Position numbers and translations under genes: made by a program
Shown here: positions 21,309 through 46,714 of the stretch, piece after piece
How positions within the stretch are numbered: the stretch's first letter is position 1
Layout of the letters: every line of letters starts with the position of its first letter
Assembly (NCBI RefSeq): GCF_036226665.1
Contig: NZ_CP109007.1
Location: 6,634,001 to 6,698,000, forward strand
Length of the DNA stretch: 64,000 nucleotides
Direction: 5' to 3'
From: Streptomyces sp. NBC_00691
GTDB taxonomy: Bacteria > Actinomycetota > Actinomycetes > Streptomycetales > Streptomycetaceae
The notes under the pieces: model-generated
Database searches by the model: none
Told to the model about the DNA's origin: nothing
What the model saw: the letters and a program-made list of their open reading frames with translations, nothing else

Positions 21309-21371
21309 TCCGATCGTCCTCACTTCTTGGACCTGGACCCGTGGCACCCGAAGGCCCGGTCCGGGGTGGAT

Positions 21372-21409: not shown

Positions 21410-24400
21410 TCAGTGGGCGCCGAGCGCCCGGCTCAGCTCGTCCGCCAGAACCCGCAGCCGCTCACCACGCATCACCGTGTAGTGGTCGCCGGGAACGTCC
21501 ACGAGGGTGGCGTCGCCGGGGAAGTACTCCATCCAGCGCCGCGCTGTCTCGACGGTCGCGCCGCCGTCCGCCGCCCGCAGCGACAGCACCCGGCCGGCGA
21601 AGGCGCTGGGCGCGTACCGCAGCAGGGCACGGTAGTTGCTCTGGAAGCGGCCGACGATGGAACTCAGCGTGTCGAGGTCGATGTCCTCGGACAGCGCCCC
21701 CGCCGCGCGCGCCTCGGCGTGCAGCACCTCCACCGGCGGACGGCCGTCGAACGCCTCGGCCGGCAGCTGCCACTCGACCCCGGCGAGGCCCGCCAGATCC
21801 CGGGCGAACCAGGACAGCAGCACCTCGTCGGAGACCGGCTCGCCCCCGGCCGGGCCGGGCCGCTCCATCAGGTCGACCACGGCGAGCAGCTCCACCTCGG
21901 CCCCCGCCGCGGTCAGCTGGGCCGCCATCTCCAGCGCGATCACACCGCCCATGGACCAGCCGCCGACCCGGTACGGGCCCTCGGGCAGCGCCTCACGGAC
22001 CGCCGCGACGTAGTGGGCGGCCATCTCCTCGACGCTCGGCAGCTCCGTGTCCGGCAACTGCAGCGCGTAGAACGGCTGGTCGTGACCGAGGAGTTCGGCG
22101 AGTTCCGCGTAACAGAGCACGTCACCGCCGACCGGGTGGACGAACACCAGCGGAGTCCGCCAGCCCGTGGTGCGGACCGGCACGAGAGCCCTGCGGCCGT
22201 CCTCGACGCTGCCGGTCTCCCGGACCGCCCGGGCGAGCAGTTCGATGGTCGGCCGGGCGAACAGGCTGGACAGTGGCAGGCTGCGACCCAGGCCGCGGGC
22301 GATCCTGGCCATCAGCCGCACCGCGAGCAGCGAGTCCCCTCCGAGGTCGAAGAAGCTCGCGGTCACCCCGATCTCGGCGACCCCGAAGAACTCCGCCCAG
22401 ATCTCCGCGAGCCGGCGTTCCACCTCGTCGCGGGGGGCGACGAAGCCGGCGCCCTCGACGGCGACCTCGTCGGGTGCGGGCAGCGCAGCCCGGTTGACCT
22501 TGCCGTTGTCGCTGAGCGGCAGCTCGTCGAGGACGAGGACGCGCTGCGGGACCAGGTGCTGCGGGACCACCTTGCGCAGCGAGTCGGTGATCCGCTGCTC
22601 GGTGTCGTCGCGCCCCTCGTCGAGGACGACGTACGCGATCAGCCGCTTCGGACCGTGCTGCTCGCCCGCCGCGACGACCGCGGCGGCCCGTACGCCCTCG
22701 CACTGGGTGAGAGCGGCCTCCACCTCGCCCAGTTCGATGCGGTAGCCCTGGACCTTGACCTGGGAGTCCTGGCGGCCGAGGAACTCGATGGTGCCGTCCG
22801 GGAGGAAGCGCCCCAGGTCCCCCGTGCGGTAGAGCCGCTCACCGGTGACCGGGTGGTGCAGGAACGCGGCGTCCGTCTTGACCTCGTCGTTCAGATAGCC
22901 GCGGGCCAGGCCGACCCCGGCGATGTAGAGGTCGCCGGGCACCCACACGGGACACGGCCGCATCGCGCCGTCCAGCACATGGAAGCGCTGGTTACGCATC
23001 GCCTTGCCGTAGGGGATGCTCACGCAGTCCTCGGTGACCTCCCCGATGGGGTGCAGGATCGACCAGATCGACGCCTCGGTGGCGCCGCCGAGGCTCCACA
23101 GCTCGGCATCCTCCAGGAGCAGCCGGATCCGGCCCGGCAGGGTCACCGGGATCCAGTCCCCGCTCATCATGACCAGCCGCACCGGCAGCCCGGTGAGCCG
23201 GTTCGCGAGGGCGTGCTCGGTGAACATCTCCATGAGCGCGGGCACGCTGTTCCAGATCGTCACCCCGTGCTCGGTGACGAGCTCCGCCCAGCGGGCGGGC
23301 TCACGGTGCGCCGACGGCTCGGGCAGCACCAGGGCGCCGCCGGCGGAGAGAAGACCGAAGACGTCGTAGACCGACAGGTCGAAGTGCATCGCGGACAGTC
23401 CGAGGGCCCGGTCCGCCGCGGTGACGCGATAGCGCTCGTTGACGTCGACGATCGTGTTCAGGGCCGCGCCGTGCTCGATCATCACACCCTTGGGCAGCCC
23501 GGTGGATCCCGAAGTGAAGATCACATAGGCGAGGTTGGTGGGCTTGGCTCCGGACGGGCCGAGCGGCTCCGGCTCGCCGGCCTCCTCCCGGCTCGCGCCG
23601 TCACCCCGCTCGCCGGATCCCTCGTCGGCCCGCACCACGGTCCTGGCCACGCCCTGCGGCCAGTCGGCGATGCCGTCCACCCACGGCTGGGTGACCACCC
23701 GGCTGATCCCGGCGCTGTCGAGCAGCACATGCAGCCGCTCGGCGGGCACCCGCGCGTCGATCGGCACGTACGCCGCACCCGCCCGCAGGATGCCGAGGGC
23801 CGCGACGACCTGCTCCCAGCCCTTGTCCATGACGATGCCGACCAGGTCGCCCGGTCCCGCCCCCAGGGCGCGCAACCGGTGACCCACCTGGTGGGACCTG
23901 CGCTCCAGATCCGCGTACGACAGGGTCAGCGAGCCCGTGATGACCGCGGGCGCGTCCGGCGTCTCCGCCGCCCGGGCCAGCACGGCGTCGTGCAGCAGCC
24001 CGTCGGGCACCGGCCCGTCGGTGGCGTTGGCCTCGGCCCGTACCTCCAGATCGGCGACGGGCGCGAGCGCCGGCCTCGGCCGCTGCCAGGCCGCCGGGTC
24101 CCGGGACAGCTCGCGCAGCGTCCGCTGGTAGGCCGCGAACATCGCGTCGACGCAGCCCGCCGGGAACAGCTCCTCGATCACGTCCCAGTTCAGCAGGAGC
24201 TCGCCGGCCTCCTCGACCGCCTGGTGGTCCAGCCACACCTGCGGGGTGCGGACCGAGCTGCTCACCTGGCGGCCGTTCTCACCGATGCCGGCGAGGTGCC
24301 GCACGACCCCACCGGGCTCGCCGTCCTGCCGGTCGGCCATGTTCACCAGGCTGGTGAAGACGACCGGCGCGGCGGCCCGGACCGAGGCGCCGCGCGCCCG

Positions 24401-27400
24401 GTTCAGTTCCCGGAGCACCTGCACACCGCTGACCTGGCTGTGCTCCATGTCGCTCCACAGCCGGCTCTGGACGGCGGAGGCGCGGACGGCGAACGAATCG
24501 GTCGCCGAGTCGCGGATCTCCAGCATCAGGGTCGTGGAGAACTGACCGATGACGTCCCCGACCTGCGGGTGCAGCGGCAGCCGGTTGAAGTAGAGCAGGT
24601 TCAGGGAGAAGTCGGGAGTGGCACTCCACTCCGCGATGACCTGCGCGTACGCGGTGCACAGGGCCGCCGACGGGCTGACCCCGGCCGCCGCCGCGTGCTG
24701 CTTGAACCGGTCCCAGTCCTCCCTGGCCAGGGTCGCGCCGCGGTGGTTGAACACCGGCCGCTCCAGGCTCGACGGACTGACGGCCAGCGGAAGCTGGGGC
24801 GCGGGCGGCAGGGTGTCGAGCCGGTCGCGCCAGTAGGCGAGCGCCCGGTCGTACTCGGGCCCGGCCTCCAGCGCGCGGGCCTCCCTGACGTAGTCCCGGT
24901 AGCGCAGCCGCAGTTCGGGCAGCGTCTCACCGCGGTAGTGCGCCGCCCACTCCTTGAACAGGATCGACGTGCTGAATCCGTCGATGATCAGGGCGTCGAA
25001 GCCCGCGTGCAGCCGGATCACCCGCTCGTCGATCCGGGTCACCCGCACATCGAACAGCGGCCAGCACGTGGTGTCGAAGACCTGGTGCCGCATCTCCTCG
25101 TGCACGGCGACCAGTTCGGCCTCGCGCTCGGCCGGTTCCAGGACGGAGGCGTCGGTCTCCCGGATCACGTACGCGGGGACATCACGCCGGATGCGCTGCT
25201 CGCCGTCGGCGGTGAAGACCGCCCGCAGCATGTCGTGGCGCTCGATCATCGCCCGGAAGGACGCGCCGAGCCGGTCCAGGTCCACGTTCTCCAGGTCGAT
25301 CTCGATCTGGAAGTACGTCGAGGTGTTGCCGAGTTCGAACGCGTCACCGCGGCCCACGAGATAGGCCTGCTGGAGGTCGGTCAGACCGAACGGCTCGTAC
25401 CGCTCGGAGTCGTCCCCGACCACGACGGTCCCGCCGTCGGCCGCCGCGGGCTCCGCCTCCCCGCCCTCGTGGCTCTCCCCTTCGGAACCGAGAGCCGCCA
25501 GGACGTCGCCGGCGATGTCCTCCGTGCTGCGGCCTTCGAGGAACGCCGCCATCGGCAGCAGGACGTCGAACTCCTTGTTCAGCGTCGTCCGGATCTTCAT
25601 CGCGATCAGCGAGTCGAGACCGAGCGCCTGCAGCGACTGCCGGGCGTCGAGGCGTGCCGCCGTCGTCCCGAGGGCCCGGGCGACGGTCCGGGTCACGAAG
25701 GCCCGCGCCGCGTCGGGCACCACGGCGGACGCCGCGTCGGCTGCTTCGGCCGGAGCCGTCGTCGCGACGGCCGCCGGGGCCGCACCGAGCGGGCGCGCCT
25801 CGGGAACCGCAGCCGGGGCGCGCACGGCCGCGGATACGGGGCGCACCGCGGCCGCCGGAGCCGACTCGGCCTCCGCCGCCGACCGGGTGAGGGCCGGGAC
25901 GAACCGTACGCCGTCGGCCTCGGCCACCAGCCGCCCGTTCGCCGAGACGAGCCGGATACGAGCCCGGGTGCCGCCCTCGAACAGTTCGGCATGACATCGG
26001 AGCCCGTCCTGAGGGCCGCCGCGGTCGTAGTGGACGAAGCGTTCGAGACCGGTCGGCACGAGAGCCGGGCCGTCCGCCGGGAAGCAGGCCAGTGCGGTCT
26101 GGAACATCGCGTCGACGAGCCCCGGGTGGATCACGTACGCCTCGGACTCGCCGGGCACGGCGGACCGGATCTCGGCGGTGGCCTCGCCGCGCCCGAGCCT
26201 GATCCGCTCCACCCAGCGGGCGGCGGAACCCAGGTACAGGGCACGCTGCCACAGCAGCCGGTACAGCTCGTCACCCGTCAGCTCACGGCCCGAACCGCCC
26301 GCCGCGAGCGCCACCGTCGGCGCGGCCGCCGCGCCCGAACGGGCCAGGGCCTGCGCGTGCAGCTGCCAGCCACCGGACGGGTCCTGCGCGTAGTAGCCGA
26401 ACCGCTCGCCGTTCACCACGAGGTGAGCCGTGCGCCCGGTGCCGGCCGGCGCGAGCACCAGGTCGACGGGAAGCTCCAGGTCCTGGACGGACACTGGTCC
26501 CGGTCCGGCGAGTTCGGTGACCGCCTCGATCAGTGACTCCACGAACACACCGGCGCTGACCACCGGCCGCCCGCCGACCACGAAGTCGCCGAGGCAGGGG
26601 TGCGCCGACGGGTCGAGCGGCGGGGAGAACTGCGCCTCCGCGAGCGGCGACGACGGCAGTCGTGCACCCAGCAGGCTTGCCGACTCGGCGGCCGGCGCCA
26701 CCGGAAGGGGCGCGGCGGGCGCAGCCGAGGGGGCTTCCGGCGCGAGCCAGTAGTGCTGGCGTTGGAAGGGGTAGGTGGGGAGTTCGGTGGTGCGGGGCTG
26801 GTAGGGCTGGAGGAGGGTCGGCCAGTCGACGGTGACGCCGTGGGTCCAGGCTTCGGCGGCTGATTCGATGAAGCGTTCGAGGGTGCCGTTGTTGCGGTGG
26901 AGGGTGCCGAGGACGGCGCCGGTGTCGGCGAGGGTTTCGGTGATGCCGGAGGCGAGGACGGGGTGGGCGCTGATTTCGATGAAGACGGTGTCGGGTGTGG
27001 CGAGTTGCTGGATGACTTCGGCGAGGCGGACTTTGCTGCGGAGGTTGCGGAACCAGTAGGCGCTGTCGAGTGCGCTGGTGTCGAGGAGCCCGCCTGTGAC
27101 CGTGGAGTGGAAGGCGGTGTGTCCGGACTGTGGTGTGACGTCCCTCAGCTGGTCGGCGAGGGTGTGCTGGATTTCGTCGACGTGTGCGGAGTGGGAGGCG
27201 TAGTCGACGGGGATGCGGCGGGCCCAGATTCCGTTGGTTTCGCAGTGGGTGAGGAGTGCGTCGAGTGCTTGGGGTTGTCCGGCGACGACGGTGGAGGAGG
27301 GTCCGTTGACGGCGGCGACGGAGAGTTGTCCGGGCCAGGTGGTGAGGAGGGTTTCGGTCTGGGTTTCGGGGATGCTGAGCCAGGCCATGCCGCCGCCGCC

Positions 27401-30400
27401 GGAGAGGGCGCGGAGGGCTTGGGAGCGGAGGGCGATGATGCGGGCGCCGTCGTGGAGGGTGAGGCCGCCGGCGACGACGGCTGCGGCGATCTCGCCTTGG
27501 GAGTGGCCGATGACGGCTGTGGGGTGGATGCCGTTGGCGCGCCAGAGGGCGGCGAGGGCGATCATCATGGCCCAGGAGGCGGGTTGGACGACGTCGACGC
27601 GGTCGAGGCCAGGGGCGTTGTCCTCGCCGCGGAGGACGGCTGTCAGAGACCAGTCGACGAACGGTGCGAGGGCTGTCTCGCAGTCGGTGATGGTCTGGGC
27701 GAAGACGGGGGAGGAGTCCAGGAGGTCGACGGCCATCCCGGCCCACTGCGAACCCTGACCCGGGAACACGAACACGGCAGGAGCACCGGAGGCGCGCCCC
27801 GGCTTCGCACCGGAGACGGCCGCGGTGACCGCCTCCACCTCGCGGGAGGCGAGTGCGTCGAGGCCGGCGAGGAGTCCGTCCCGGCCTTCGGCGCCGGGGA
27901 CCATGGCCCGGGACTCGTAGGCGGACCGGTTCGCGGCCAGGGAGAACGCCACGTCGGCCGGGTGGAGCTCGGGCCGTGCCCGTACGTGCTCCGCCAGTCG
28001 ACCGGCGGCCTCGGCGAGTGCGTCGGCGGACCGCGCCGACACGATCCACGGCAGACCGGCCTCGGGACGCTCGGTCGAGTCCTCGGCAACCGGATCGGTC
28101 GCGGGGGCCTCGGCGAGGATGACGTGGGCGTTGGTGCCGCTGATCCCGAAGGACGACACTCCCGCCCGCCGGATCCTTCCCTCCGTGGCGGGCCAGGTCC
28201 GGGCCTCGGTGAGGACCTCGACGCCGCCGGACTCCCAGTCGACGAGTTCGCTGGGCCTGCTCACGTTGAGCGAGGCGGGCACTTCGCCGTGCTGGAGCGC
28301 CATGACCATCTTGATGACGCCGCCGACGCCGGCGGCGGCCTGGGCGTGTCCGAGGTTGGACTTGAGTGAACCCAGCATCAGGGGCCGGTCGCCGTCGCGT
28401 TCGCTGCCGTAGGTGGCGAGGAGGGCCTGTGCCTCGATGGGGTCGCCGAGGACGGTGCCGGTGCCGTGCGCCTCGACCGCGTCGACTCCGGAGAAGGAGA
28501 CCCCGGCGTCGGCCACCGCGGCGCGGATGACCCGCTCCTGGGCGGGTCCGCTGGGCGCGGTCAGGCCGTTGGACGCGCCGTCCTGGTTGACGGCCGTTCC
28601 GGCGACGACGGCGAGGACCTGGTGTCCGAGTCGGCGGGCGTCGGAGAGGCGTTCGACGACGAGGACACCGACGCCCTCGGCCCACGCCGTACCGTCCGCG
28701 TCAGCCGAGAACGACTTGATACGGCCGTCCGCCGCGAGTCCCCGCTGGCGGGAGAACTCGACGAAGGTGTGGGGGGTGGACATCACCGCGACGCCACCGG
28801 CGAGGGCCAGCGAGCACTCGCCGGACCGCAGGGCCCGTACGGCCAGGTGCAGTGCGACCAGGGACGACGAGCACGCGGTGTCGACCGTGAGCGCCTGCCC
28901 CTGCAGGCCCAGGGTGTAGGCCACCCGGCCGGTGGCGACGCTGCCGGCCGTACCGGTCAGGAAGTGGCCCTCGGCCTCCTCCGGGAGCCGGCCGCCACCG
29001 CCGTAGTCGTGGTACATCACACCGGCGAACACCCCGGTGTCGCTGCCGTGCAGCGTTCCGGGCGCGATGCCCGCCCGCTCCAGGGCCTCCCACGACACTT
29101 CGAGGAGCAGCCGCTGCTGCGGGTCCATCGCCAGCGCCTCGCGCGGCGAGATCCCGAAGAAGGCCGGGTCGAACTCGCCGGCGTCGTGGAGGAATCCACC
29201 GCGCCGCACGTACGACGTGCCGGAGTGGTCCGGGTCCGGGTGGTAGAGACCCTCCAGGTCCCAGCCGCGGTCGGTCGGGAAGTCCGAGATCACATCGCGC
29301 TGCCCGGCGACGACCTGCCACAGACCCTCGGGGGAGTCCACCCCGCCCGGGAAGCGGCACCCCATGCCGACGATCACGATCGGGTCGTCGTCGGTGCGCG
29401 GTGCGACGGCGGCGACGGGCTGCGGGGAGGCACTCTCGGCCCGTTCCCGCGCGAGCGCCAGCGTGAAGTCGACGACGGCGGCCGGCGTGGGGTGGTCGAA
29501 GACGAGGGTCGCCGGAAGGCGCAGCCCGGTCGCGGAGTTGAGACGGTTCCTCAGCTGCACGGCGAGCAACGAGTCGACGCCGAAGCTCTTGAACGGCTGG
29601 TCCGGGTCGATCCCGTCCGCCGAGTCCCGGCCGATGACCGCGGCGAGCTGGGCGTTGACGAGGTCCAGCAGGAGGCGGCGGCCCTCCTCCTGCGAGAGCC
29701 TGCCGAGCCTGCGGCGCAGGCCGGACTCGCCGGCCCGCCGCCGGGGGACCCGTACCAGCGAGCGCAGCACCGGGGACAGGGTCCCGTCGAGGGCGTCGGA
29801 GCGCAGGGCGGCCGGGTCGAGCCGGGCCGGTACGAGCAGCGCCGTGTCGTCTCCGAGCGCGCGGTCCAGGAGTTCGAGGCCCTGCTCGTTGGAGAGCGGG
29901 GCGATGCCGCGGGTCGAGAGGGTGCTGTCGTCCAAATGGCCGGTGAGGCCCGTGCGTTCGGCCCACAGGCCCCAGGCGAGCGAGGTCGCGGGGAGGCCGG
30001 CGGCCCGGCGGCGGGCGGCGAGCGCGTCGAGGAACACGTTGCCCGCGGCGTAGTTGGCCTGGCCGGGGTTGCCGAGCACACCCGCGACCGAGGAGAACAG
30101 GACGAACGCGGCGAGGTCCTGGCCCGCGGTGAGTTCGTCGAGGTGAGCGGCGGCGTCCACCTTAGGACGCAGCACGGCGGCGAGCCGGTCCGGCGTCAGC
30201 GACTCGATCACACCGTCGTCGAGGAGGCCCGCGGTGTGGACGACGGCGGTCAGCCGGACGTCGGCGAGGAGCCGCCCGAGCGCGTCGCGGTCGGCGGTGT
30301 CGCAGGCGGCGAGAGTGACCTCCGCGCCCAACCGGGTCAGTTCGGATGCGAGTTCGTCGGCGCCGGGGGCGTCGGGTCCGCGGCGGCTGACGAGCAGGAG

Positions 30401-33400
30401 ACGGCGGGCGCCGTGCCCGGTGACCAGGTGCCGCGCGACCGAGGCGCCGAGGACGCCGGTTCCGCCGGTGATGAGCACGGTCCCGTCGGGGTCGAGTGCG
30501 GTGCCGCCGGCCGGATCGGCGACGGCGGTGTGCCGGACGAGCCGTGGCGCGAGGAGCGTGCCCGCCCGCAGCGCGAGCTGAGGCTCGGTGAGGACGGCCC
30601 CGGGAACGCTGTCCATGGCGCCCGCCGGGTCCGCGTCCGTGTCCAGCAACGAGAAGCGGTCGGGGTGCTCGGACTGAGCGGTCCTGACCAGACCCCACAC
30701 GGTGGCCTGGGCGGGGTTCGTGACGTCGGGGCCGGCGGCGCCGGCGGTCAGCACCAGCAGCCGCGACCCGGTGAACCGGGCGTCGGCCAGCCAGTCCTGG
30801 ACCAGGGTCAGCGCCCGACCGGCCGCACGGTGCGCGTGACCGGCGAGGCCGGCCCCCGTGCTGTCGGAGTCCTGCGGCGAGCCCGGACATCGTACGGCGA
30901 CGAGCTGGGGCACCGGATCCGGCACCTCGGCCAGATCGGCGACCAGACAGACGTCCACGTCGGCCGCGGTGGCCTGGACCGGCTGCCACTCCAGCCGGAA
31001 CAGCGCGTCGGTGCCACGGGAGGCGGCCAGGTCCGCGGTGAACGGCCGCATCGTGACGGACTCTGCGGACAGCACGGGCCTGCCCGCGGCGTCGGTGACG
31101 CGCAGGCTCACCCCGTCCGCGCCCTTGGCACCGAGCCACACCCGGAGGGCGTCCGCGCCCTCGGTGTAGCGGGTGACGCCGGACCAGGAGAACGGCAGGA
31201 CCGTGCCGCCGTCCTCGCGCAGCAGGCCGACCGCGTGCAGAGCGGCGTCGAGCACGGCCGGGTGGACACCGAAGGAAGCGGCGTCGAGCTCGGCGGGCAG
31301 GCTCACCTCGGCGAAGACGTCACGGCCGGCGCGCCAGGCGGCGCGCAGCCCCTGGAAGGCGGGGCCGTAGTCGTAGCCCGCTTCCGAGAGGGTGTTGTAG
31401 CGGTTCTCGACGTCGATCTCCTGGGCGCCGGACGGCGGCCACTCGGAGAGGTCGAAGTCCGGCGCCTCGTCGTCGATGTCGAGCAGGGCGGCGGCGTGCC
31501 GCGTCCACGGAACACCCGCGTCGGCGTCCTGCGGCCGCGAGTGGACGGCCAGCTCCCGCTGGCCGCTCGCGTTCGGCGGTTCGACGGTCACCCGCAGCTG
31601 CACGGCCTCGTCGGGCGGCAGCACCAGGGGCGCCTGGAGGGTCAGTTCGGAGAGCCGTCGCCAGCCCATGCGGGCACCCACGGCCATCGACAGCTCGAGG
31701 AACGCGGTGCCCGGCAGCAGGACGGTGCCGTGCACGGCGTGATCGGCGAGCCACGGCTGTGTGTCGAGGCCGAGCCGGCCCGTGTACACCAGCCGGTCCT
31801 CCTCGACGAGCTCGACCACGGCGCCCAGCAGCGGGTGCCCCGCCGGGTTCAGGCCGAGCCCCCGGGCGTCCGTCGCGGCCGGTTCGGGTTCGAGCCAGTA
31901 GTGCTGGCGTTGGAAGGGGTAGGTGGGGAGTTCGGTGGTGCGGGGCTGGTAGGGCTGGAGGAGGGTGGGCCAGTCGATGGTGATGCCGTGGGTCCAGGCT
32001 TCGGCGGCGGATTGGATGAAGCGTTCGAGGGTGCCGTTGTTGCGGTGGAGGGTGCCGATGGCGGTGCCGGTGTCGGCGAGGGTTTCGGTGATGCCGGTGG
32101 TGAGGACGGGGTGGGCGCTGATTTCGATGAAGACGGTGTCGGGTGTGGCGAGTTGTTGGACGGCTTCGGCGAGGCGGACTTTGCTGCGGAGGTTGCGGAA
32201 CCAGTAGGCGCTGTCGAGTGCGCTGGTGTCGAGGAGCCCGCCTGTGACCGTGGAGTGGAAGGCGGTGTGTCCGGACTGTGGTGTGACGTCGCTCAGCTGG
32301 TCGGCGAGGGTGTGCTGGATTTCGTCGACGTGTGCGGAGTGGGAGGCGTAGTCGACGGGGATGCGGCGGGCCCAGATTCCGTTGGTTTCGCAGTGGGTGA
32401 GGAGTGCGTCGAGTGCTTGGGGTTGTCCGGCGACGACGGTGGAGGAGGGTCCGTTGACGGCGGCGACGGTGATCTGTCCGGGCCAGGTGGTGAGGAGGGT
32501 TTCGGTCTGGGTTTCGGGGATGCTGAGCCAGGCCATGCCGCCGCCGCCGGAGAGGGCGCGGAGGGCTTGGGAGCGGAGGGCGATGATGCGGGCGCCGTCG
32601 TGGAGGGTGAGGCCGCCGGCGACGACGGCTGCGGCGATCTCGCCTTGGGAGTGGCCGATGACGGCTGTGGGGTGGATGCCGTTGGCGCGCCAGAGGGCGG
32701 CGAGGGCGATCATCATGGCCCAGGAGGCGGGTTGGACGACGTCGACGCGGTCGAGGCCGGGGGCGTCGTCGTCTCCGCGCAGGACGGCGGTGAGGGACCA
32801 GTCGACGAACGGTGCGAGGGCTGTCTCGCAGTCGGTGATGGTCTGGGCGAAGACGGGGGAGGAGTCCAGGAGGTCGACGGCCATCCCGGCCCACTGCGAA
32901 CCCTGACCCGGGAACACGAACACGGCACGGGAGGAGGACACACCGTTCTCGCCGTCGACCTCGCGGGAGGCGAGCGCGTCGAGACCGGCGAGGATCCCGT
33001 CCCTGCCCTCGGCGCCGGGGACCACGGCACGGGACTCGAACGCGGACCGCTTGGCGGCCAGGGAGAACGCCACGTCGGCCGGGCGGAGCTCGGGCCGTGC
33101 CCGTACGTACTCCGCGAGCCGGCCCGCGGCCTCGGCAAGAGCATCGGCCGAACGCGCCGACACCGTCCACGGCAGCGTCGCGCCGTCCAGCCGGACAGCG
33201 CCGTCCGGCGCCGATCCCGGCTCTCGCGACGTGCTCTCGGCGACCGGTTCGGGTGTGGGGGCCTCGGCGAGGATGACGTGGGCGTTGGTGCCGCTGATGC
33301 CGAAGGAGGAGACTCCGGCGCGCCGGGCGCGGTCTTCGGCAGCGGGCCAGGGGCGGGGCTCGGTGAGGACCTCGACGCCGCCGGTCTCCCAGTCGACGAG

Positions 33401-34648
33401 TTCGCTGGGCTTGCCGACGTTGAGGGAGGCGGGCAGCTCGCCGTGCTGGAGGGCCATGACCATCTTGATGACGCCGCCGACGCCGGCGGCGGCCTGGGCG
33501 TGTCCGAGGTTGGACTTGAGTGAACCCAGCATGAGGGGCCGGTCGCCGTCGCGTTCGCTGCCGTAGGTGGCGAGGAGGGCTTGTGCCTCGATGGGGTCGC
33601 CGAGGACGGTGCCGGTGCCGTGGGCCTCGACCGCGTCGACGCCGGCGAAGGAGATCCCGGCGTCCTGGACGGCGGCGCGGATGACGCGTTCCTGTGCGGG
33701 GCCGCTGGGGGCGGTGAGTCCGTTGGAGGCGCCGTCCTGGTTGACGGCGGTTCCGGCGACGACGGCGAGGATCTGGTGTCCGAGCCGGCGGGCGTCGGAG
33801 AGGCGTTCGACGACGAGGACGCCGACGCCTTCGGCCCACGCCGTGCCGTCCGCGTCCGCGGAGAAGGATTTGCAGCGGCCGTCGGTCGCGAGCCCGCGCT
33901 GGCGGGAGAACTCGACGAAGATGCCGGGTGTCGACATGACCGTGACGCCGCCCGCGAGGGCGAGCGAGCACTCGCCGGACCGCAGGGCCTGCACGGCGAG
34001 GTGCAGTGCGACCAGGGACGAGGAGCAGGCGGTGTCGACGGTGAGGGCGGGGCCTTGCAGGCCCAGGGTGTAGGCCACCCGGCCCGAGGCCACGCTCGAC
34101 GTGGTGCCCGTCAGGCCGAACCCGGCGGAACCCGCCGCCGCCTCGCCCAGCCGCGGACCGTACTCCTGGGTGATCGCGCCCAGGAACACGCCCGCCGACG
34201 TGCCGTGCAGCGACCCGGGGGCGATCCCCGCCCGCTCCAGGGCCTCCCACGCCACTTCGAGGAGCAGCCGCTGCTGCGGGTCCATCGCCAGCGCCTCACG
34301 GGGAGCGATCCCGAAGAACGCGGGGTCGAACTCGGCGGCCCCGCTCAGGAATCCGCCGTCACGCACATAGGACGTGCCCGAGTGCTCCGGGTCGGGGTGG
34401 TAGAGACCCTCCAGGTCCCAGCCGCGGTCGGTGGGGAGTCCGGAGATCACATCGCGCTGCCCGGCGACGACCTGCCAGAGCGCCTCGGGGGAGTCCACCC
34501 CGCCCGGGAAGCGGCACCCCATGCCGACGATCACGATCGGATCGTTGGCACCGGCCTCCAGCTCACGGACCCGCTGACGGGACTGGTGGAGGTCGACGGT
34601 GAGGCGCTTGAGGTATTCGACGAGTTTGTCGTTGTCCGTTGTTGTCAT
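21410..34648 (-). CDS. Hybrid type I PKS-NRPS: KS-AT-DH-KR-ACP / KS-AT-dh-ACP / Cy-A(Cys)-PCP-TE
   Basis: A 4412-residue enzyme. Start ATG 34648 gives an N-terminal docking coil (residues 1-31). Module A: KS 36-460 (Cys208), AT 577-880 (YASH 767-770, methylmalonyl), DH 937-1205 (His970, Asp1134), KR 1385-1610 (LDD 1476-1478, B-type), ACP (Ser1693). Module B: KS 1755-2180 (Cys1926), AT 2292-2590 (YASH 2483-2486, methylmalonyl), a DH-like fold about 2665-2920 without the active His, no KR, ACP (Ser3013). Module C: heterocyclisation domain 3085-3525 ([25 protein letters not shown] with D3218/D3223), A domain 3553-4055, PCP (Ser4106), TE 4155-4410 (GWSMGG, Ser4232). The A-domain pocket reads D-L-Y-N-M-S-L-I-W-K, one change from the cysteine code. 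The product should leave as a thiazoline. Confidence 0.95.
26744..27779 (-). repeat. AT-coding segment nearly identical to 31892-32927 (copy 2)
   Basis: This 1036-bp stretch of module B matches the segment of module A at 31892-32927 with a constant offset of 5148 bp and only scattered substitutions, including many third-position identities. Both encode the methylmalonyl-specific AT and the linker to the following domain. Flanking DNA diverges sharply at both edges. Confidence 0.88.
31892..32927 (-). repeat. AT-coding segment nearly identical to 26744-27779 (copy 1)
   Basis: Partner of the segment at 26744-27779. The + strand here is full of GGTG, GGAG and TTGG runs, a base pattern visibly different from neighbouring PKS sequence, so the shared segment also differs in codon choice from the rest of the gene. 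Confidence 0.88.
33241..34169 (-). repeat. KS-coding segment nearly identical to 39918-40846
   Basis: About 929 bp coding for most of the KS of module A in the second PKS protein. It matches the KS of the extension module in the first PKS protein (39918-40846, offset 6677 bp) almost base for base. It starts in the linker after KS and ends abruptly near the ETYGPRL-equivalent region ([10 protein letters not shown]). Confidence 0.85.
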
Positions 34649-34818
34649 GGCGATGATGCCCCCGTAGGCGTCGTGAAGCTGTGCGTGTGCGCGGTTCCCG
34701 GGCACGGCACGCCCGCGGGACGTGCCCGGGCGTGCCGCGCGCGGCGAACAGGATGGGCGGACAGGAGTCCGGTTCCGTGCGGTGCGCGGGTGGAGTTGTG
34801 GTCGGAGTGGGGATCGGG

Positions 34819-37800
34819 TCAGAGTTCGGAGTCGATGAACGCGAGGAGCTCGTCGACCGAGGCCGACTCGACCCGCGCGGCCAGATCCTCGTCGTCACTC
34901 GGGGTCCGCTGAGCGGGGACGCGGGCCACCAGGGCCTGGAGACGCTGCACGATCTCGTCCCTGATGTCGTCCCGGGTGTCGTCCGGAAGACCGGCGAGCG
35001 CCGCTTCGAGGCCGTCGAGCTCGACGAGCCCGGGTACGGCCCTCGCGCCGTCGGAGACGGCGGACTCCGGCTCCGCCGGGACCAGTTCGCCGTGCAGGTG
35101 GGCCACGACCGCGATGGGCGTGGGGTAGTTGAAGAGGAACGTGGCGGGCAGGCGCAGATCGGCGCTGGTCTGCAGCCTGTTGCGGAGTTCCACGAGCGTC
35201 AGCGAGTCGCAGCCCAGGTCCTTGAAGGACCGCTCGGCGGGGATGCCGGACGCGGAGGAACGGCCGAGTACGGCGGCGGTCTGCACCCGGACGAGATCGA
35301 GGAGCAGTTCCTCGCGCTCGGCCGGGCCCAGGTCGGCGAGCCGGTCGCGCAGTGTCGCGGTCGCCGGGGCCGCGCTGGTGGCCGCCGCCTGGGCCGGCCG
35401 CGGTGCGGCCGGTGCCAGGTCCCGCAGCACGGTCGGCAGTCGTGTACCGAGCGCGCCGAGGGCGGCACGGTCGAGCGGAGCGGGGACGAGCGCGGCGGAG
35501 TCCATGCGCAGGGCCGCGTCGAGCAGGGCGAGGCCCTCGCTCCGGTCGATGGGCGCGAGACCGGTGCGGGCGAGCCTGCCCCGGTCGGCCTCGGACAGGG
35601 ACCCCGCCATTCCGGCGGCGCCCGGACGTCCCGCGGTGTCCGCCCACATGCCCCACGCCAGGGAGAGCGCGGGGAGGCGCTGTGCCCTGCGGTGCTGGGC
35701 CAGGCCGTCGAGGTAGGTGTTGGCCGCGGCGTAGTTGCCCTGGCCCGCGCCGCCCATGACGCCCATGACGGAGGAGAAGAGGACGAAGGCCGCCAGGTCG
35801 TGGTCCGCGGTCAGCTCGTGCAGGTTGCGGGCCGCGGTGGCCTTGGGGGCGAGCACCGTGTCGAGGCGCTCCGGGGTGAGCGCGGTGATCACACCGTCGT
35901 CGAGCACTCCCGCGGCGTGGACGACGGCGGTGAGCCGTACGCCGCCGAGCAGCCGCGCGAGCGCGTCGCGGTCGGCGGTGTCACAGGCGGCCAGCGTCAC
36001 CTGGGCACCCAGCGCGGTGAGTTCGGCCGCGAGTTCCCGGGCGTCCGGTGCGTCGGGGCCCCGGCGGCTGACGAGGAGCAGACGCCGGGCGCCGTGCTCG
36101 GTGACCAGATGCCGTGAGACGAGTCCGCCCAGGGCGCCGGTGGCGCCGGTCACCAGGACCGTGCCGTCCGGGTCGAGGGCCGGCGGCAGGGTGAGGACCA
36201 CCTTGCCGATGTGCCGGGCCTGGCTGACGTGACGGAACGCCTCCGGTGCCCGGCGTACGTCCCAGGTGCTGAGCGGCAGCGGTGTGAGCGCTCCCGAGGA
36301 CAGCAGCCGCAGGACGTCCGTGAGGAGTTCGGCGATCCGTTCCGTCGGCTCCTGCAGCAGGTCGAAGAAGCCGTACGCGACGCCGGGGTGGTCGGCGGCG
36401 ACCTGTTCCGGGTCGCGCAGATCGGTCTTGCCCATCTCCACGAAACGACCGCCGTGCGGCAGCAGCCTCAGGGAGGCGTCGATGAACTCACCGGCGAGCG
36501 AGTTCAGGACGACGTCCATGCCGCGGCCTTCGGTGGCCGCGCCGAACGCGCCCTCGAAGTCCAGGGTGCGGGACGACGCCAGGTGCGCGCCCTCGAGGCC
36601 GAGCGGACGAAGGGCGTCCCACTTGCCGGGACCGGCCGTGCCGTACACCTCCGCCCCGAGGTACCGGGCCAGCTGGACGGCCGCCATCCCGACCCCGCCG
36701 GCGGCGGCGTGGATCAGGACGCGCTCACCCGCGGTCAGACGGGCGAGGTCGACCAGGGCGTGGTAGGCGGTGAGGAACACGATGGGCGCGGACGCCGCCT
36801 GGGCGAAGCTCCAGTCGGAGGGCATGACGGCCACCCGCCGGTGATCGGCGACGACCACCGGGCCGAACGCCCCGGAGAACAGGCCCATGACCCGGTCGCC
36901 GACGTCGAGACCGGTGACACCGGGGCCGACCTCGGTGACCACACCCGCCCCTTCGAGGCCGAGCAGGCCGGGGTCGCCGGGGTAGAGGCCGAGCGTGTTG
37001 AGGACGTCGCGGAAGTTGACGCCCGCGGCCCGCACGGCGATGCGCACCTCGCCGTCGGACAGCGGGGCCAGGAGCTCCGGGCAGGGTTCGAGCGCCAGGT
37101 GGTCCAGGGTGCCGCGGTCGCGGACCCCGAGCCGCCAGGCGGCGACCCCGGCCGGCGGCACCAGGGAGCCGTCACCCGTCGCCCGCCCCAGCATCGGAAC
37201 GAGCAGTTCATCGCCTCGTACGGCGAGTTGGTGCTCGGCGCCGATCAGCGGCAGTGCGGTACGGCAGTCGGCGGCCGACTCCACGTCGAGGAGTCCGACC
37301 CGCCCGGGGTTCTCGGTCTGCGCCGAGCGGGCCAGACCCCATACGGCGGCCAGGTCGGGGTCCACGTCCGCGTCCGCCACCGTGGCCACGCCGGCCCGGG
37401 TGACGAGCACCAGCCGGGAGTCGGCGAGCCGGTCGTCGGCCAGCCACTCCTGGAGCAGGGCGAGCGCCCGGTGGACGGCGGCCTTGGCGTCTGCCTCCGG
37501 CCCCCCGGCACGCTCCCCGTGCCCGGCCGTGTCACCGGGTTCCCCGAGGTCCGCGAGCGGTGCGAAGACCACCGCGGGAACGGGAAGGCCCGCGTCGAGG
37601 GCCTGGCCCAGGGCCGTGAGGTCCGTGTACCGCGCGCCGACGCCCAGATCTGCGGCGCCGAGCGCGGCGGCCGAAGGCGACGGCTCGTGGTCCACCGTGG
37701 CGGGGATCCAGTCCAGCCGGTGGAGGGACCGCGGGACGGCCACCTCGTCGCTCACCGGGCGCAGGACCAGTTCCTCGACCTCGGCGACCACCGCGCGGGA

Positions 37801-40800
37801 CTCGTCGAGCAGGGTCAGCGACACCGCGTCCGGCCCGGTGGGGGTGATGACCACGCGGGCGGTACGGGCGCCGTGCTGACGGACGGTCACGCCGTGCCAG
37901 GAGAAGGGCAGCAGACGGCGGTTGCCGTCGTCCAGCGCCGTCATGACGATCGGGTGCAGGGCCGCGTCGAGCAGCGCCGGATGCAGCCCGTACGAGGAGG
38001 CGTCGGTGACGGACGCGGGCAGGGCGACCTCGGCGACCAGGTCCGTGCCGTGCCGCCACGCGGCGCGCAGGCCCTGGAAGACGGGCCCGTAGGCGTAGCC
38101 CGCGGTGGCCAGCTCGTCGTAGCGGCCGTCGACCGCCAGCGGCTCGGCCTCGCCGGAGAGCGGCCCCGCCGTGGTCGCGGGAGCTCCGTCGTGCGGGGCG
38201 AGGGCTCCGGTGGCATGCAGGGTCCACGGCTCGACGGCGCCGTCCGGCGTCTCGGTCCGGGCGTGCACGGTCAGCGCCCGCTGTCCGTCCTCGCCGGGTG
38301 CCGCGACGACGACCTGCACCTCGGTGCGGCCCTCCTCGGGGATCACCAGCGGTGCGAGCAGGGTCAGTTCGGCGACCCGCGGCGTACCGGTCTCCGAGCC
38401 CGCGCGGGCGGCGAGTTCGAGGAACGCGGTGCCGGGCAGCAGGACCGAGCCGAGGACGGCGTGGTCGGCCAGCCAGGGGTGGGTACGGCGGCCGAGCCTG
38501 GCGGTCAGCACGGCCTGCCCGGACTCGGCGAGTTCGACGGCGGGGCCGAGCAGCGGGTGACCGGCCGCCCCCTCGGTGCCGCGCGCGGTCAGCCAGTACC
38601 GCTCCCGCTGGAAGGCGTACGTCGGCAGACCGGGCGTCCGGCCCGGGCCGAACACGGCGGCCCAGTCCGGGCCCCGGCCGCGGACGTGCAGGGTGCCGAG
38701 CGCGGCGGCCAGGGTGCGGTGCTCGGAGCGGCCGCGGCGCAGCACGGGAACGAAGGCCTGCGCGGCGTCGTCGAGGCAGTCCTGACCCAGCGCCGACAGC
38801 ACACCGTCCGGGCCGAGTTCGAGGAAGGTCCGCATCCCGAGGCCGTGGAGCGCCGCGAGACCGTCGGACATCCGCACCTCGCGGCGCACCTGCCGCACCC
38901 AGTAGTCGGCGGTGACCTCCACGGGTCCGCCGGTGACGGTGGACACCATGGCGATACGCGGCTCCGCGTACGTGACGCCCGCGGTCACGGCCGCGAACGC
39001 GTCGAGCATCCCGTCCATGCGGTGCGAGTGGAAGGCGTGACTGACGACGAGCCGGCGCGTCTTGCGGCCGGAGGCGGCGAACGCCTCGGCGACCTGCTCC
39101 ACGGCCTCGACGTCGCCGGAGACCACGACGGCCAGCGGGCCGTTGACGGCGGCGATGCTCACCTCGTGCTCGCGGCCTTCGAGGAGCGGACGGACCTCGT
39201 CCTGCGAGGCCTGGACGGCCAGCATCGCGCCCCCGGCGGGCAGGGCCTGCATGAGCCGGCCGCGCGCGGAGACCAGCGCACAGGCGTCCGGCAGAGTGAG
39301 GATCCCGGCGACGTGCGCGGCGGCGAACTCGCCGATGGAGTGGCCCAGTACGGCGTCCGGGGCCAGGCCCCGGTGCTCGAGCAGCCGGAACAGCGCCACC
39401 TGGAGGGCGAAGAGGGCGCACTGGGTGTTCTCGGTCCGGTTGAGCGCCTCGGCGTCGTCGAACATCACGTCGCGGATCGGCGCGGTGCCGGGCACCGAGG
39501 CGCGACATGCGTCGAGTTCGGCGCACACCGCGTCGAGGGCGGCCGCGAACACCGGCTCGGTCGCGTACAACTCACGCCCCATACCGACGCGTTGGCTGCC
39601 CTGCCCGGTGAAGAGATAGGCGAGGCCGTCGTCGGGGCGTGCCGTGCCGAGCGTCAGCGCGGAGTGCGGCTCGCCGCGGCCGAGCGCGGTCAGCGCCGCG
39701 ACGGCCTCGGAGCGGTCGTCGGCGATGACGGCCGCGCGGTGGTCGAGCGCCGTACGGGTGGTGGCGAGGGCACGGCCGAGGTCACGGTCGGACACCTCGT
39801 CGGAGGTGCCCAGGGCGTCGACGAGCGCGGTCGCCTGGGCGCGCAGCGCCGCCTCGGTACGGCCGGACAGCACCCACAGGGGCCCGGAGCCGTCGTTCCC
39901 GGAGTCGGCTCCGGACACGACCGGTTCGGGTGTGGGGGCCTCGGCGAGGATGACGTGGGCGTTGGTGCCGCTGATGCCGAAGGAGGAGACTCCGGCGCGC
40001 CGGGCGCGGTCTTCGGCAGCGGGCCAGGGGCGGGGCTCGGTGAGGACCTCGACGCCGCCGGTCTCCCAGTCGACGAGTTCGCTGGGCCTGCTCACGTTGA
40101 GGGAGGCGGGCAGCTCGCCGTGCTGGAGGGCCATGACCATCTTGATGACGCCGCCGACGCCGGCGGCGGCCTGGGCGTGTCCGAGGTTCGACTTGAGTGA
40201 ACCCAGCATGAGGGGCCGGTCGCCGTCGCGTTCGCTGCCGTAGGTGGCGAGGAGGGCTTGTGCCTCGATGGGGTCGCCGAGGACGGTGCCGGTGCCGTGC
40301 GCCTCGACCGCGTCGACGCCGGCGAAGGAGACCCCGGCGTCGGCCACCGCGGCGCGGATGACCCGCTCCTGGGCGGGTCCGCTGGGGGCGGTGAGTCCGT
40401 TGGAGGCGCCGTCCTGGTTGACGGCCGTTCCGGCGACGACGGCGAGGACCTGGTGTCCGAGCCGGCGGGCGTCGGACAGGCGCTCCACCACGAGGACGCC
40501 GACGCCCTCGGCCCACGCCGTGCCGTCCGCGTCCGCGGAGAAGGATTTGCAGCGGCCGTCCGCGGCGAGCCCGCGCTGGCGGGAGAACTCGACGAAGATG
40601 CCGGGTGTCGACATGACCGTGACGCCGCCCGCGAGGGCGAGCGAGCACTCGCCGGACCGCAGGGCCTGCACGGCGAGGTGCAGTGCGACCAGGGACGAGG
40701 AGCAGGCGGTGTCGACGGTGAGGGCGGGGCCTTGCAGGCCCAGGGTGTAGGCCACCCGGCCCGAGGCCACGCTCGACGTGGTGCCCGTCAGGCCGAACCC

Positions 40801-43800
40801 GGCGGAACCCGCCGCCGCCTCGCCCAGCCGCGGACCGTACTCCTGGGCCATGACACCGGCGAACACGCCCGCCTGGGTGCCCCGCAGCGAGTCCGGGGCG
40901 ATACCGGCCCGCTCCAGGGCCTCCCAGGACGTCTCGAGGAAGGCGCGCTGCTGCGGGTCCATCGCCAGCGCCTCGCGCGGCGAGATCCCGAACAGCTCGG
41001 CGTCGAACTCGGCGGCGCTCTCCAGGAAGCCGCCGTTGCGCACGTAGGTGGTGCCCACATGGGCGGGGTCGGGGTGGTAGAGACCGTCGAGGTCCCAGCC
41101 GCGGTCCGCGGGGAAGGCCGAGATCACGTCGCGCTGTTCGGCGACGACCTGCCAGAGCGCCTCGGGGGAGTCCACCCCGCCAGGGAAGCGGCACCCCATG
41201 CCGACGATCACGATCGGATCGTCGTCCTGGCCGGCGCGGTCCTCCGGGACCGTCGCGTCGTGCTGTCCCTCGGCCAGCACCGCGGCCAGGGCCGCGGGGC
41301 TCGGGTGGTCGTACACCACGGTCGTGGGGAGCTTGCGCCCGGTGGCGGCGACGAGCCGGTTGCGCAGCTCGACGACCATCACCGAGTCGATGCCCAGCTC
41401 CTTGAACGTCCGCCGAGGCTCGATCTCCGCGGCGGAGTCGTAACGGAGCACGGCGGCGGTGTGCGCCCGCACCAGCTCCAGGGCGGCCGGTCCGGTCAGC
41501 GAGCGGGTCGGCTCGGCGTCCTGCGCGTCCTCGCCGTCCTCCGGGACCGGCACGAGAGCCGTCGGAGTCGTGACGGTGCCGGCCGTCGGCAGCGAGCGGC
41601 CGGTGCCGGACGGCCCGGCGATCCAGTGGCGCCGCCGCTGGAAGGCGTACGTCGGCAGCTCGGCGCGCGTGTCGCCGGCGGGCAGGACGGCGGACCAGTC
41701 CACGTCCGCGCCGTGGCAGAACGCCTCGCCGAAGGCGAGCAGCAGCCGCTGCGGGCCGCCCTCGTCCCGGCGCAGGGTGCCCAGCGCGGAGACCGGCAGG
41801 TCGGCGGCCTCTGCGGTCTGCTGGACGGCGAGGGTGAGCACGGGGTGCGGGCTCATCTCGATGAACAGCTCGTGCCCCGCGTCGAGCAGCGCGCGTACGG
41901 CCGGCTCGAACCGCACGGGCTCCCGCAGGTTGCGGTACCAGTAGTCGACGTCCAGCTCGGACCCGTCGAGCACCGTGGCGGTCACGGTCGAGTGCAGCGG
42001 CACGCTCCCGGTGCGCGGCGCGATCCCGGCCAGCTCCGCGGGCAGGGTGTCGCGTACGGCGTCGACGTGCGGGCTGTGCGAGGCGTACGCGACCGGCACC
42101 CGCCGGGTACGGACGTCCTCGCCGTACCCGGCGGCCAGGGAGTCCAGGGCGGCCCCGTCACCGGCGACCACGGTCATGCCGGGGGAGTTGACGGCGGCCA
42201 CGCTCAACCCCGGGTACGCCGCGAGGTCCTCGCGCACCCGGTCGGCTGGCAGCGACACGGTGAGCATGCCGCCGCCGCGTCCGGCGAGCGCGCCGAGCGC
42301 GGCGCTGCGTACGGCGACCAGCCGGGCCGCGTCGTCCAGGGACAGGGCGCCGCTGACGGTGGCGGCGGCGATCTCGCCCTGCGAGTGGCCGACGACCGCG
42401 GCCGGCTCGACTCCCGCCGCGCGCCACAGGGCGGCCAGACCGACCATCACGGCCCACAGGGCGGGCTGCACGACGTCGTCACGGTCGAGGGCGGGCGCAC
42501 CGGGGCGGCCGCGCAGCACATCGGTCAGCGACCAGTCGCGGTACGGGCGCAGCGCCCGCTCGCAGTCCTCGACGACCCGGGCGAAGACGGGGGCGCTGTC
42601 CAGGAGTCCGGCGGCCATGCCGGCCCACTGCGCACCCTGGCCGGGGAAGACGAACACGGCCTCGCGGACGGCCTGGTGACTGCTGCCCCGTACCGCGCCG
42701 CGGTCGACGCCGGCGTCGGCGACCGCGTCCAGCGCGGCCAGCAGCTCGTTCCGGTCGGCGCCGACGAGGACGGCCCGGTGGCTGAAGGCGGTCCGGTCGT
42801 GCGCGAGGGCCCGGGCGATCTCGGCGGCACCGAATTCCGGGTGCCGGGAGAGGTGAGCGCGTAGACGGTCGGCCTGTGCGCGCAGTGCCTTCTCGCCGCG
42901 TCCGGACATCACCCAGGCGAGAGATTCGGAACCTTCCGAATCGTCCTGCCACCACGGCTGATGCGGGGAGTTCCCGGTGACCGGGGCGGTTTCCTCCGGC
43001 CTTGAGCCGAGCACCAGATGACAGTTGGTCCCGCCCATTCCGACGGATGTCACACCGGCGACGAGCGGGCCGTCAGGATTCGGCCATGGTCCGGTTTCGG
43101 TGGCGGCGGTGAGCCGAAGATCGGCGAAAGGAATCTGTGGATTCGGCGTCTCGTAGTTCAGGGTCGGTACGAGTTCACGCTCGGCCAGGCAGAGAATCGT
43201 CTTGACGAGCCCCGCGATGCCTGACGCGCCTTCGAGGTGGCCGATATTCGTCTTGACGGATCCGAGCCTGAGGGGATTCTCCGGAGATCGGGAGGAGGCG
43301 AAAACGGCGCCCAGAGCAGATGCCTCGATGGGGTCGCCGACCCGGGTGCCCGATCCGTGTATTTCTACGTACTGTGCTTGTTCCAGCGGTATTCGCGCAT
43401 TTTCCCAGGCATCGCGTATGACGCGTTCCTGGGCTTTTCCGTTCGGGGTGGGAAGGGTGTCGCTCGCGCCGTCGCTCCCGACGGCCCCGCCGTGCAGCAC
43501 ACAGTGGATGCGGTCCCCGTCGGCCAGGGCGCGGCCGAGGAGCTTGAGCGCCACCATGCCACCGCCCTCGCCCCGGACGTAGCCGTTCGCCCGGGCGTCG
43601 AGTGCGTAACATCGACCGTCGGGCGAGAGACTGCCGAAGGCGGCCAGGGCGTGGGTGCTCTCCGGCGCGAGGTTGAGGTTGACGCCGCCGGCGAGGGCCA
43701 TGACGGACTCGCCGCGGCGCAGGCTCTCGCAGGCCAGATGCACTGCGACCAGCGCGGACGACTGTGCTGTGTCGACCACCATGCTGGGGCCTCGGAGCCC

Positions 43801-44394
43801 GAGCGCGTACGAGACCCGGTTGGCGATGATGCCCCGGTGCAGCCCGGTCACGGTGTGCGCGGAGGTGGCGTCGGGGCCGGCGGCGTGGGTGACGGCCGCG
43901 TAGTCGTCGGCGATCGCGCCCATGAAGACGCCCGTGGCGGTGTCGGCGAGAGTGGCCGGAACGATGCCGGAGTCCTCGAGCGCCTCCCAGGCGAGTTCGA
44001 GGACGAGTCGCTGCTGCGGGTCCATCGCGGCGGCTTCACGCGGGGAAATGCCGAAGAACTCGGCATCGAAGGTGTCGACCCTGGGCAGAAAACCACCGGG
44101 GCGCGGTGAGCCGTCGGCCGTGGAGGCAAGGTGTGCGCGATCTGCGGGCGGCTCGCCTATGGCGTCGCGGCCGTTCCTGAGAAGGTTCCAGAATTCGGTG
44201 GGGTTCGCACCACCGGGAAAGCGGCAGGAAAGTCCGACGACAGCGACCGTCCGGTCGTCGATACCCTCGGGTAACTTGTGCGACGGTCCATCCTGGACCA
44301 ACGCTTCCCGGTTTTCCGCCGCACCGCCTGAAGGGCCTCGTACCGCGCTGTCTGATGGCGTTGCTGCCGCCTGAATTTGGGCATGGCGGATCAT
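34819..44394 (-). CDS. Type I PKS: loading module KSQ-AT-ACP plus KS-AT-DH-ER-KR-ACP
   Basis: A 3191-residue polyketide synthase. Loading module: KS-like domain 48-465 with DTAQSSAL, so the active cysteine is replaced by Gln211 (KSQ, a decarboxylase); AT 578-880 (GHSQGE, Ser671; YASH 770-773, methylmalonyl, giving propionyl); ACP (Ser1004). Extension module: KS 1058-1485 (Cys1231), AT 1590-1900 (GHSIGE, HAFH 1786-1789, malonyl), DH 1943-2215 (His1977, Asp2142), ER 2410-2735 ([19 protein letters not shown]), KR 2742-2970 (LDD near 2830), ACP (Ser3063). The C-terminal helix (about 3165-3191, [16 protein letters not shown]) is a docking domain that fits the coil at the start of the next protein. 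ATG 44394 is chosen; GGGGGAG lies about 10 nt upstream. Product passed on: pentanoyl-ACP. Confidence 0.95.
39918..40846 (-). repeat. KS-coding segment nearly identical to 33241-34169
   Basis: Partner in the other PKS gene of the segment at 33241-34169. A shorter and more diverged version is present in the KS of module B (about 28120-28960). Confidence 0.85.
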
Positions 44395-44473: not shown

Positions 44474-44502
44474 ACCCTAGCATCGAGACGGCGCTCCGTA
44501 AA
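44474..44502 (-). promoter_or_regulatory. Predicted promoter of the PKS operon
   Basis: On the minus strand: TTTACG (44502-44497), 17 bp, TAGGGT (44479-44474). TAGGGT fits the Streptomyces HrdB -10 consensus TAGRRT. The expected start is near 44467, giving a leader of about 73 nt to ATG 44394. Confidence 0.5.
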
Positions 44503-44846: not shown

Positions 44847-45221
44847 TCACCGGGAAGCGGCCGGGATGTTCCTGTCGGCCGCCGGCTCGCCCGCGGCCTT
44901 CGCCGCCGGGTCCGCCTTGGTGAGGGTGCAGACGCCGTCCACGCACTGCCGCTCAAGCCGACCGCGCGAGATCGTCTGCGCCAGGCCGACCATCCAGCAC
45001 GTGGGGCAGCCCCGGAAGGCGATCAGGGCCAGCGGGGCCGCGAGCAGCGTGGCCGGACCGGCGACGGGCACCATGGCGATCGAGCCGATGATCAGCCCGA
45101 AGCCGATGACGCCGCGCGCCAGGTGGCGCGGGACGGACTTGCTGGCGAAGTTCATGTCGTTCGCCGGGGCCTTCGTGGTGACCCGGATCTGGTCGCCCTG
45201 TGCGGGCTTCACGATGTTCAC
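44847..45221 (-). CDS. DUF2892-like membrane protein with paired cysteine motifs
   Basis: A 124-residue protein starting at GTG 45221 with a strong GGAGGAG site 10 nt upstream. Residues about 25-75 resemble the YgaP-type transmembrane DUF2892 domain: KSVPRHLARGVIGFGLIIGS then AGPATLLAAPLALIAFRGCPTCWMVG. It has two cysteine pairs, CPTC in the second helix end and CVDGVC after it, which suggests redox or metal binding. It lies 38 bp after an ECF sigma factor gene and is probably in its operon. The sigma-anti-sigma layout is tempting, but this protein lacks a ZAS motif or a recognisable anti-sigma domain. Confidence 0.78.
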   Translation of the reverse strand: MNIVKPAQGDQIRVTTKAPANDMNFASKSVPRHLARGVIGFGLIIGSIAMVPVAGPATLLAAPLALIAFRGCPTCWMVGLAQTISRGRLERQCVDGVCTLTKADPAAKAAGEPAADRNIPAASR

Positions 45222-45883: not shown

Positions 45884-45970
45884 TCAGCTTCGGCTCTTGT
45901 AACGGCGCATGAGGTGCCAGCTGCACGCGCCCACGAGCAGGACTCCGATGACTACGAGGGCCGTGACCAT
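45884..45970 (-). CDS. 28-residue single-helix membrane peptide
   Basis: A very short frame starting at ATG 45970, with GGAGGA 5 nt upstream. It encodes one transmembrane helix (MVTALVVIGVLLVGACS) followed by a basic tail (HLMRRYKSRS), the shape of regulatory or stability micropeptides. It lies 42 bp upstream of the sigma factor start on the same strand. The good ribosome-binding site and sensible composition support it, but nothing else does. Confidence 0.55.
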   Translation of the reverse strand: MVTALVVIGVLLVGACSWHLMRRYKSRS

Positions 45971-46641: not shown

Positions 46642-46680
46642 GGGTCCTGCCTCTCTCTGTGGCGGTTGTCGACACAGTTA

Positions 46681-46708: not shown

Positions 46709-46714
46709 AGCCCC

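Follow-up and report, generated by a model that had tools for sequence, protein, structure and literature searches.

The PKS-NRPS genes and their neighbours

The window, by which we mean the whole 64,000-nucleotide stretch of Streptomyces DNA analysed here, contains two large minus-strand open reading frames with high third-position GC, both of them real genes. Two PKS/NRPS genes had been predicted at these coordinates from the sequence alone, and translation, Pfam matches and motif scans bear this out, showing that the encoded proteins A and B are collinear. For protein B, an ATG near 34648, directly ahead of the docking helix, is a likelier start than 34705. The genes and features referred to below are as follows.

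17220–17807, plus strand: predicted secreted dirigent/allene-oxide-cyclase-like barrel, eight-stranded; start perhaps the ATG at 17253
17928–19610, plus strand: acyl-CoA ligase (AMP-binding), convergent to the operon; nearest PDB entries 6ihk, 6ijb and 1ult
19741–20175, minus strand: 144-aa helical protein without a Pfam family; its start overlaps the stop of the next gene listed (ATGA)
20172–21347, minus strand: FAD/NAD(P)H flavin monooxygenase (FMO); nearest PDB chains 4usq, 4a9w and 4c5o, which are small flavin monooxygenases
21410–34705, minus strand: PKS-NRPS protein B, dock-KS-AT(mmal)-DH-KR-ACP-KS-AT(mmal)-DH*-ACP-Cy-A(Cys)-PCP-TE, from translation, Pfam and motif scans
24071–25375, minus strand: Cy domain, residues 3111–3545 of protein B, with DxxxxDxxS and intact Thr/Asp/Gln
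25961–26755, minus strand: DH*, about residues 2651–2915 of protein B; Pfam PKS_DH_N/PS-DH, catalytic His lost
34819–44394, minus strand: PKS protein A, 3191 aa, KSQ-AT(mmal)-ACP-KS-AT(mal)-DH-ER-KR-ACP, from Pfam and motifs
44474–44502, minus strand: promoter-like block TTTACG-17-TAGGGT upstream of protein A, conserved
44847–45221, minus strand: 124-aa probable membrane protein between the sigma factor and the PKS, with invariant GCPTCWMVGL and C-x-DGVC
45260–45841, minus strand: ECF sigma factor, conserved with the line
45884–45970, minus strand: 28-aa probable membrane peptide (MVTALVVIGVLLVGACSWHLMRRYKSRS) upstream of the sigma factor, conserved

The operon runs on from the PKS genes into the FMO gene and then into the gene for the 144-aa protein, for which no fold match was found and whose helical model is of low confidence. 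The functions given to the FMO and the ligase are guesses at the level of the protein family, and the 124-aa membrane protein matches no Pfam family above the cut-off. The promoter-like block is retained throughout a comparison of 30 sequences, which include overlapping loci from the same genome.

Beyond the signal peptide, the model of the secreted barrel, which has eight strands, mostly exceeds a pLDDT of 90. Among solved structures, pterocarpan-synthase dirigent proteins match it best, pyocyanin demethylase comes next, and the cyclase PloI4 matches weakly (TM 0.43–0.50); the fold similarity is weak (13% identity, TM about 0.45–0.5). We know of no established function for the dirigent-like proteins of bacteria. 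A catalogue of them lists many in Streptomyces, mostly with signal peptides (PMC9344732). A second dirigent-like secreted gene, 60% identical, lies elsewhere in the same genome (5235507–5236022) with no obvious biosynthetic genes nearby, and in some relatives two dirigent-like copies lie side by side at the cluster.

Domain order and the predicted product

The gene and domain content and the catalytic motifs can be read directly. The loading KS of protein A contains VDTAQSSA and is thus a KSQ, unlike the extending KSs; the AT signatures are YASH in the loading module, HAFH in module 1, and YASH in modules 2 and 3; HxxxGxxxxP is present in DH1 and DH2; and ER1, KR1 and KR2 are all present, both KRs with LDD (B-type). 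These motifs are kept in about 20 relatives and support the module-by-module reading first proposed for the line. We infer substrate choice, module order and ring formation from established PKS and NRPS rules: KSQ would decarboxylate a methylmalonyl unit to give a propionyl starter; module 1 would add malonyl with full reduction (pentanoyl); module 2 would add methylmalonyl and halt at the E-enoyl stage ((E)-2-methylhept-2-enoyl); and module 3, with its DH dead, would add methylmalonyl with no reduction, giving a 2,4-dimethyl-3-oxonon-4-enoyl chain. The Cy domain would then join this chain to PCP-bound cysteine and cyclodehydrate it to a thiazoline, and the TE would release a 2-substituted thiazoline-4-carboxylic acid with the predicted formula C14H21NO3S ([M+H]+ 284.1315). 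We note that collinearity can fail, the related thiotetronate PKS being iterative, and that AT motif rules are not absolute.

The original prediction named the other domains of the line and overlooked the DH-like domain of module 3, an omission that leaves the predicted chain unaffected. This domain, DH*, is one of two stretches of protein B that match Pfam PKS_DH_N/PS-DH, and its active His is replaced in every relative: almost every family member has Phe in its place, a single one has Ile, and the distant lines have Cys. The second DH motif is retained despite this loss, and pN/pS is 0.30–0.47, indicating purifying selection. Because DH* is both conserved and under purifying selection, it is probably structural or acts as a non-dehydrating guide.

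Within any one of three genomes, the two methylmalonyl ATs of protein B (AT2 and AT3, about residues 591–910 and 2311–2630) share 94–99% identity, against only 77–85% between genomes, so they are being homogenised lineage by lineage.

The Cy signature is DALIIDGFS, and the dyad Thr (VVFTS) and Asp, together with the helper Gln (LDHQ), are kept in the Cy domains of all family members. The code of the A domain, obtained by alignment, is DLYNMSLIWK, which we take to be a Cys code; all family members share it exactly, and the other Cy-linked A domains that we compared have this code or one very close to it. Cy modules of this kind are familiar from pyochelin, yersiniabactin and epothilone. Modules of those types share with the present line both the Cy-A(Cys)-PCP chemistry and the catalytic residues, and the Asp-Thr dyad and helper Gln are reported to be essential for cyclodehydration in solved Cy domains (PMC9547227); the present line departs from them in that its donor is an aliphatic polyketide, and the other NRPS-type Cy domains sampled branch separately. 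The cysteine specificity and heterocyclisation originally proposed thus find support in conserved motifs, with the Thr/Asp/Gln cyclodehydration set intact. An argument against a thiazoline end is that related lines ending in Cy, Cys and TE, those of the thiotetronates, do not finish with a thiazoline. Taking these observations together, we consider it fairly probable that the locus is the core of a conserved and undescribed Streptomyces cluster with a thiazoline-forming PKS-NRPS line. In the literature searched, which covered few subscription journals, we came across no report of a cluster with such an architecture or such a product, and a search of plasmids gave no named relative of the line itself.

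Subsequent steps are speculative. The FMO and acyl-CoA ligase would probably tailor the product, by oxidation or aromatisation and by activation of the carboxylate, and the secreted barrel probably binds or acts on the product outside the cell. A further possibility is that the thiazoline nitrogen adds to the enone in an aza-Michael reaction, either after release or on the dirigent-like barrel, yielding a fused thiazolo-dihydropyridone acid that the FMO then oxidises. The predicted intermediate would place nucleophile and acceptor suitably for a six-membered ring, and a cyclase-type fold, with both dirigent proteins and PloI4 among its structural neighbours, is encoded beside the line; however, the weakness of that fold similarity and the probable secretion of the protein count against such a step. 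We know of no homologue with such an activity, and regard this route as decidedly improbable.

Distribution, conservation and borders

A scan with the DH*-ACP-Cy region located the line in 18 other Streptomyces species at 74–92% identity. The KSQ gene is present in the genomes of all 18 relatives, and in all 18 the genes for the FMO, the 144-aa protein, the ligase and the secreted protein lie downstream; the sigma factor and membrane protein genes precede the KSQ gene in 17, the contig of the eighteenth being too short to show them. In three further whole genomes the full set occupies one locus in a single gene order. Within an even sample of the genus, five of 296 Streptomyces genomes carry the line (matches of at least 84%, the present genome counted), and the FMO orthologue occurs only in line-bearing genomes, exactly the same five (5/292). 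The secreted protein is found in two of 150 sampled genomes, both of which carry the cluster, and these same two contain a close ligase orthologue (92%), a ligase paralogue of about 50% being widespread. Every domain and gene tested has a pN/pS below 1. Judged by its collinearity across species, by domains that are mostly 72–97% identical, and by purifying selection in every domain, the line is far beyond chance. The gene set of the original prediction therefore stands as regards the PKS/NRPS line, and has to be extended by the ligase, the dirigent-like protein and the sigma factor/membrane protein pair, which had not been recognised as parts of the system.

The borders of the cluster are drawn where they are because the flanking genes differ between genomes. 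To one side, at 11043–17086 on the plus strand, lie NHLM/NHLP bacteriocin export genes (HlyD, peptidase-ABC and ABC); we do not count them as part of the system, since they are found only in the nearest relatives and unrelated genes take their place in other cluster-bearing genomes. To the other side, ribosomal proteins L28 and S14 are encoded as one 134-aa open reading frame (46237–46641, minus strand) adjoining a ZigA/MRF-like GTPase gene (46659–48392); in genome G162 the L28 and S14 matches are separated in the DNA. Beyond these, at 48785–51109 on the plus strand, is a gene whose surface-protein product combines SpaA prealbumin-like folds with a choice-of-anchor A/ice-binding-like domain.

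The zinc-type genes adjoining the cluster in the present strain bear on whether the product is a small metallophore, in which the beta-keto-thiazoline-carboxylate would form an O,N,O ligand like desferrithiocin. These genes and the suitable ligand geometry of the predicted structure speak for it, but the conserved gene set includes no importer, and in G004 the cluster has no zinc-type genes beside it. Neither the DmdR-type iron box nor the Zur-like palindrome, in the pattern used for each, has a match in the window at up to three mismatches. We accordingly set aside a zinc role for the L28-S14 and ZigA/MRF-like genes, and a metallophore seems to us very improbable.

Relationship to thiotetronate clusters

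The PKS-NRPS lines for the thiotetronates thiolactomycin and Tu 3010 share with the present line a KSQ start, an alpha-methyl-beta-keto end and a terminal Cy-A(Cys)-PCP-TE (PMC5518548), the last of which follows a beta-ketoacyl ACP here also. A resemblance in the acyl pattern ahead of a Cys-loading module had been pointed out in the original prediction, with the absence of sulphur-handling genes as the argument against a common pathway. The comparisons below show the resemblance to be real for the Cy domain and for the one thiotetronate-like cluster found; the counter-argument fails, because thiotetronate producers keep their desulfurase and thiouridylase genes elsewhere in the genome, at a largely housekeeping locus of which most Streptomyces have homologues (PMC5518548). 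A NifS gene and an MnmA gene lie side by side at 5.64 Mb in the present genome, but such genes are widespread and housekeeping (PMC5518548).

Only one cluster in the sample has the thiolactomycin layout, that of G197, with a KAS gene, a P450, KSQ-ACP and KS-AT-DH-KR-ACP-Cy-A-PCP-TE, and by analogy with the published clusters (PMC5518548) it is probably a thiotetronate cluster. Its Cy domain reads VVFNS and LDHT where the present family has VVFTS and LDHQ, so that two of the three catalytic residues are changed; such changes fit a pathway whose end product is not a thiazoline, though this is a single case. We sought further thiotetronate controls with the G197 Cy domain in 393 genomes, and since the next matches are other orphan lines, the contrast in Cy residues rests on this one cluster. 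In a tree of Cy domains the present family forms one clade (support 100), and together with G197 and other orphan PKS-terminal lines it stands apart from the other NRPS-type Cy domains, 18 of which form one branch (support 98); the exact order within the PKS-terminal group is unsettled, and G197 is a long branch. The likeness to thiotetronates at the level of the Cy domain therefore has some phylogenetic basis.

These similarities admit a thiotetronate-like route, in which cysteine would do no more than donate sulphur, the FMO rather than a P450 would epoxidise the electron-poor C4=C5 of the enone, the cysteine desulfurase and thiouridylase of the host would provide the sulphur, and ring closure would yield a 3,5-dimethyl-4-hydroxy-5-alkyl thiolactone (C11H16O2S or C11H18O3S). 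The shared terminal domains, the alpha-methyl-beta-keto-gamma-methyl-enoyl pattern, the common broad branch of the Cy tree and the host NifS and MnmA genes, which need not lie in the cluster (PMC5518548), all speak for it. However, a P450 (D1, needed for ring formation) and a KAS I/II self-resistance gene are features of thiotetronate clusters (PMC5518548). The conserved set contains no P450, the only Pfam P450 in the window being at 201–1379, about 16 kb beyond the set; and there is no KAS I/II gene in the window, where the only ketoacyl-synthase matches are the four KSs of the PKS. The architecture differs too: thiotetronate PKSs have KSQ-ACP loading without an AT and a single iterative KS-AT-DH-KR-ACP, whereas the present line has KSQ-AT-ACP and three modules, with a dead DH in the last module, unlike the thiotetronate PKS, and an FMO in place of the P450. 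To judge from these sequences, the lack of P450 and KAS, the modular PKS with its loading AT, and the intact Thr/Asp/Gln of the Cy domain are better discriminators than the sulphur genes. The best reading is that by its defining features the present line is not a thiotetronate cluster, and we think the thiotetronate-like route improbable.

Sister lines

Two sets of orphan sister lines can be told apart. In G035, G137 and G236, protein A has the same domain order as here (42–71% identity), and protein B is one module shorter, with KS-AT-ACP-Cy-A(Cys)-PCP-TE, no DH* and intact Cy residues; outside the AT and ACP it is 51–64% identical to the present one. The flavoenzyme of these lines differs from the FMO, and by sequence reading is acyl-CoA-dehydrogenase-like. 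In G094, G054, G045, G158, G380 and G392, the terminal KS-AT-DH*-ACP-Cy-A(Cys)-PCP-TE is common with the present line and the Cy domains are 48–61% identical, but the upstream PKS and tailoring enzymes differ and the dyad Thr is Ala (VVFAS). Tailoring genes beside the related orphan Cys-terminated lines include MFS, luciferase-like flavoenzyme, P450, glycosyltransferase and acyl-CoA-dehydrogenase-like genes, and G054 matches plasmid NZ_CP102510.1 of Streptomyces sp. NBC_00162. We found no paper on the sister lines in a literature search that reached few subscription journals, and they look like part of a broader set of Cys-terminated lines, most of it not yet described.

Implications

Since this predicted thiazoline-forming line is whole, compact and retained by many Streptomyces, a search for its product by exact mass is feasible. 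Because it stands beside the thiotetronates in the Cy tree and yet keeps the cyclodehydration residues that are changed in the thiotetronate-type Cy, the Cy group is well suited to asking how a single kind of Cy-A-PCP-TE end may lead to a thiazoline in one pathway and to a sulphur-inserted lactone in another. A specific biosynthetic cluster is now also linked to a dirigent-like secreted protein. We suggest, as a tentative proposal that is itself rather unlikely to hold in full, that the cluster makes a family of aliphatic beta-keto thiazolines, finished by the FMO and ligase and shaped outside the cell by the secreted dirigent-type barrel, within a wider Cy-terminated group of which the thiotetronates would be one outcome. 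If this is true, it would give a bacterial dirigent-like protein a definite task within a modular PKS pathway.
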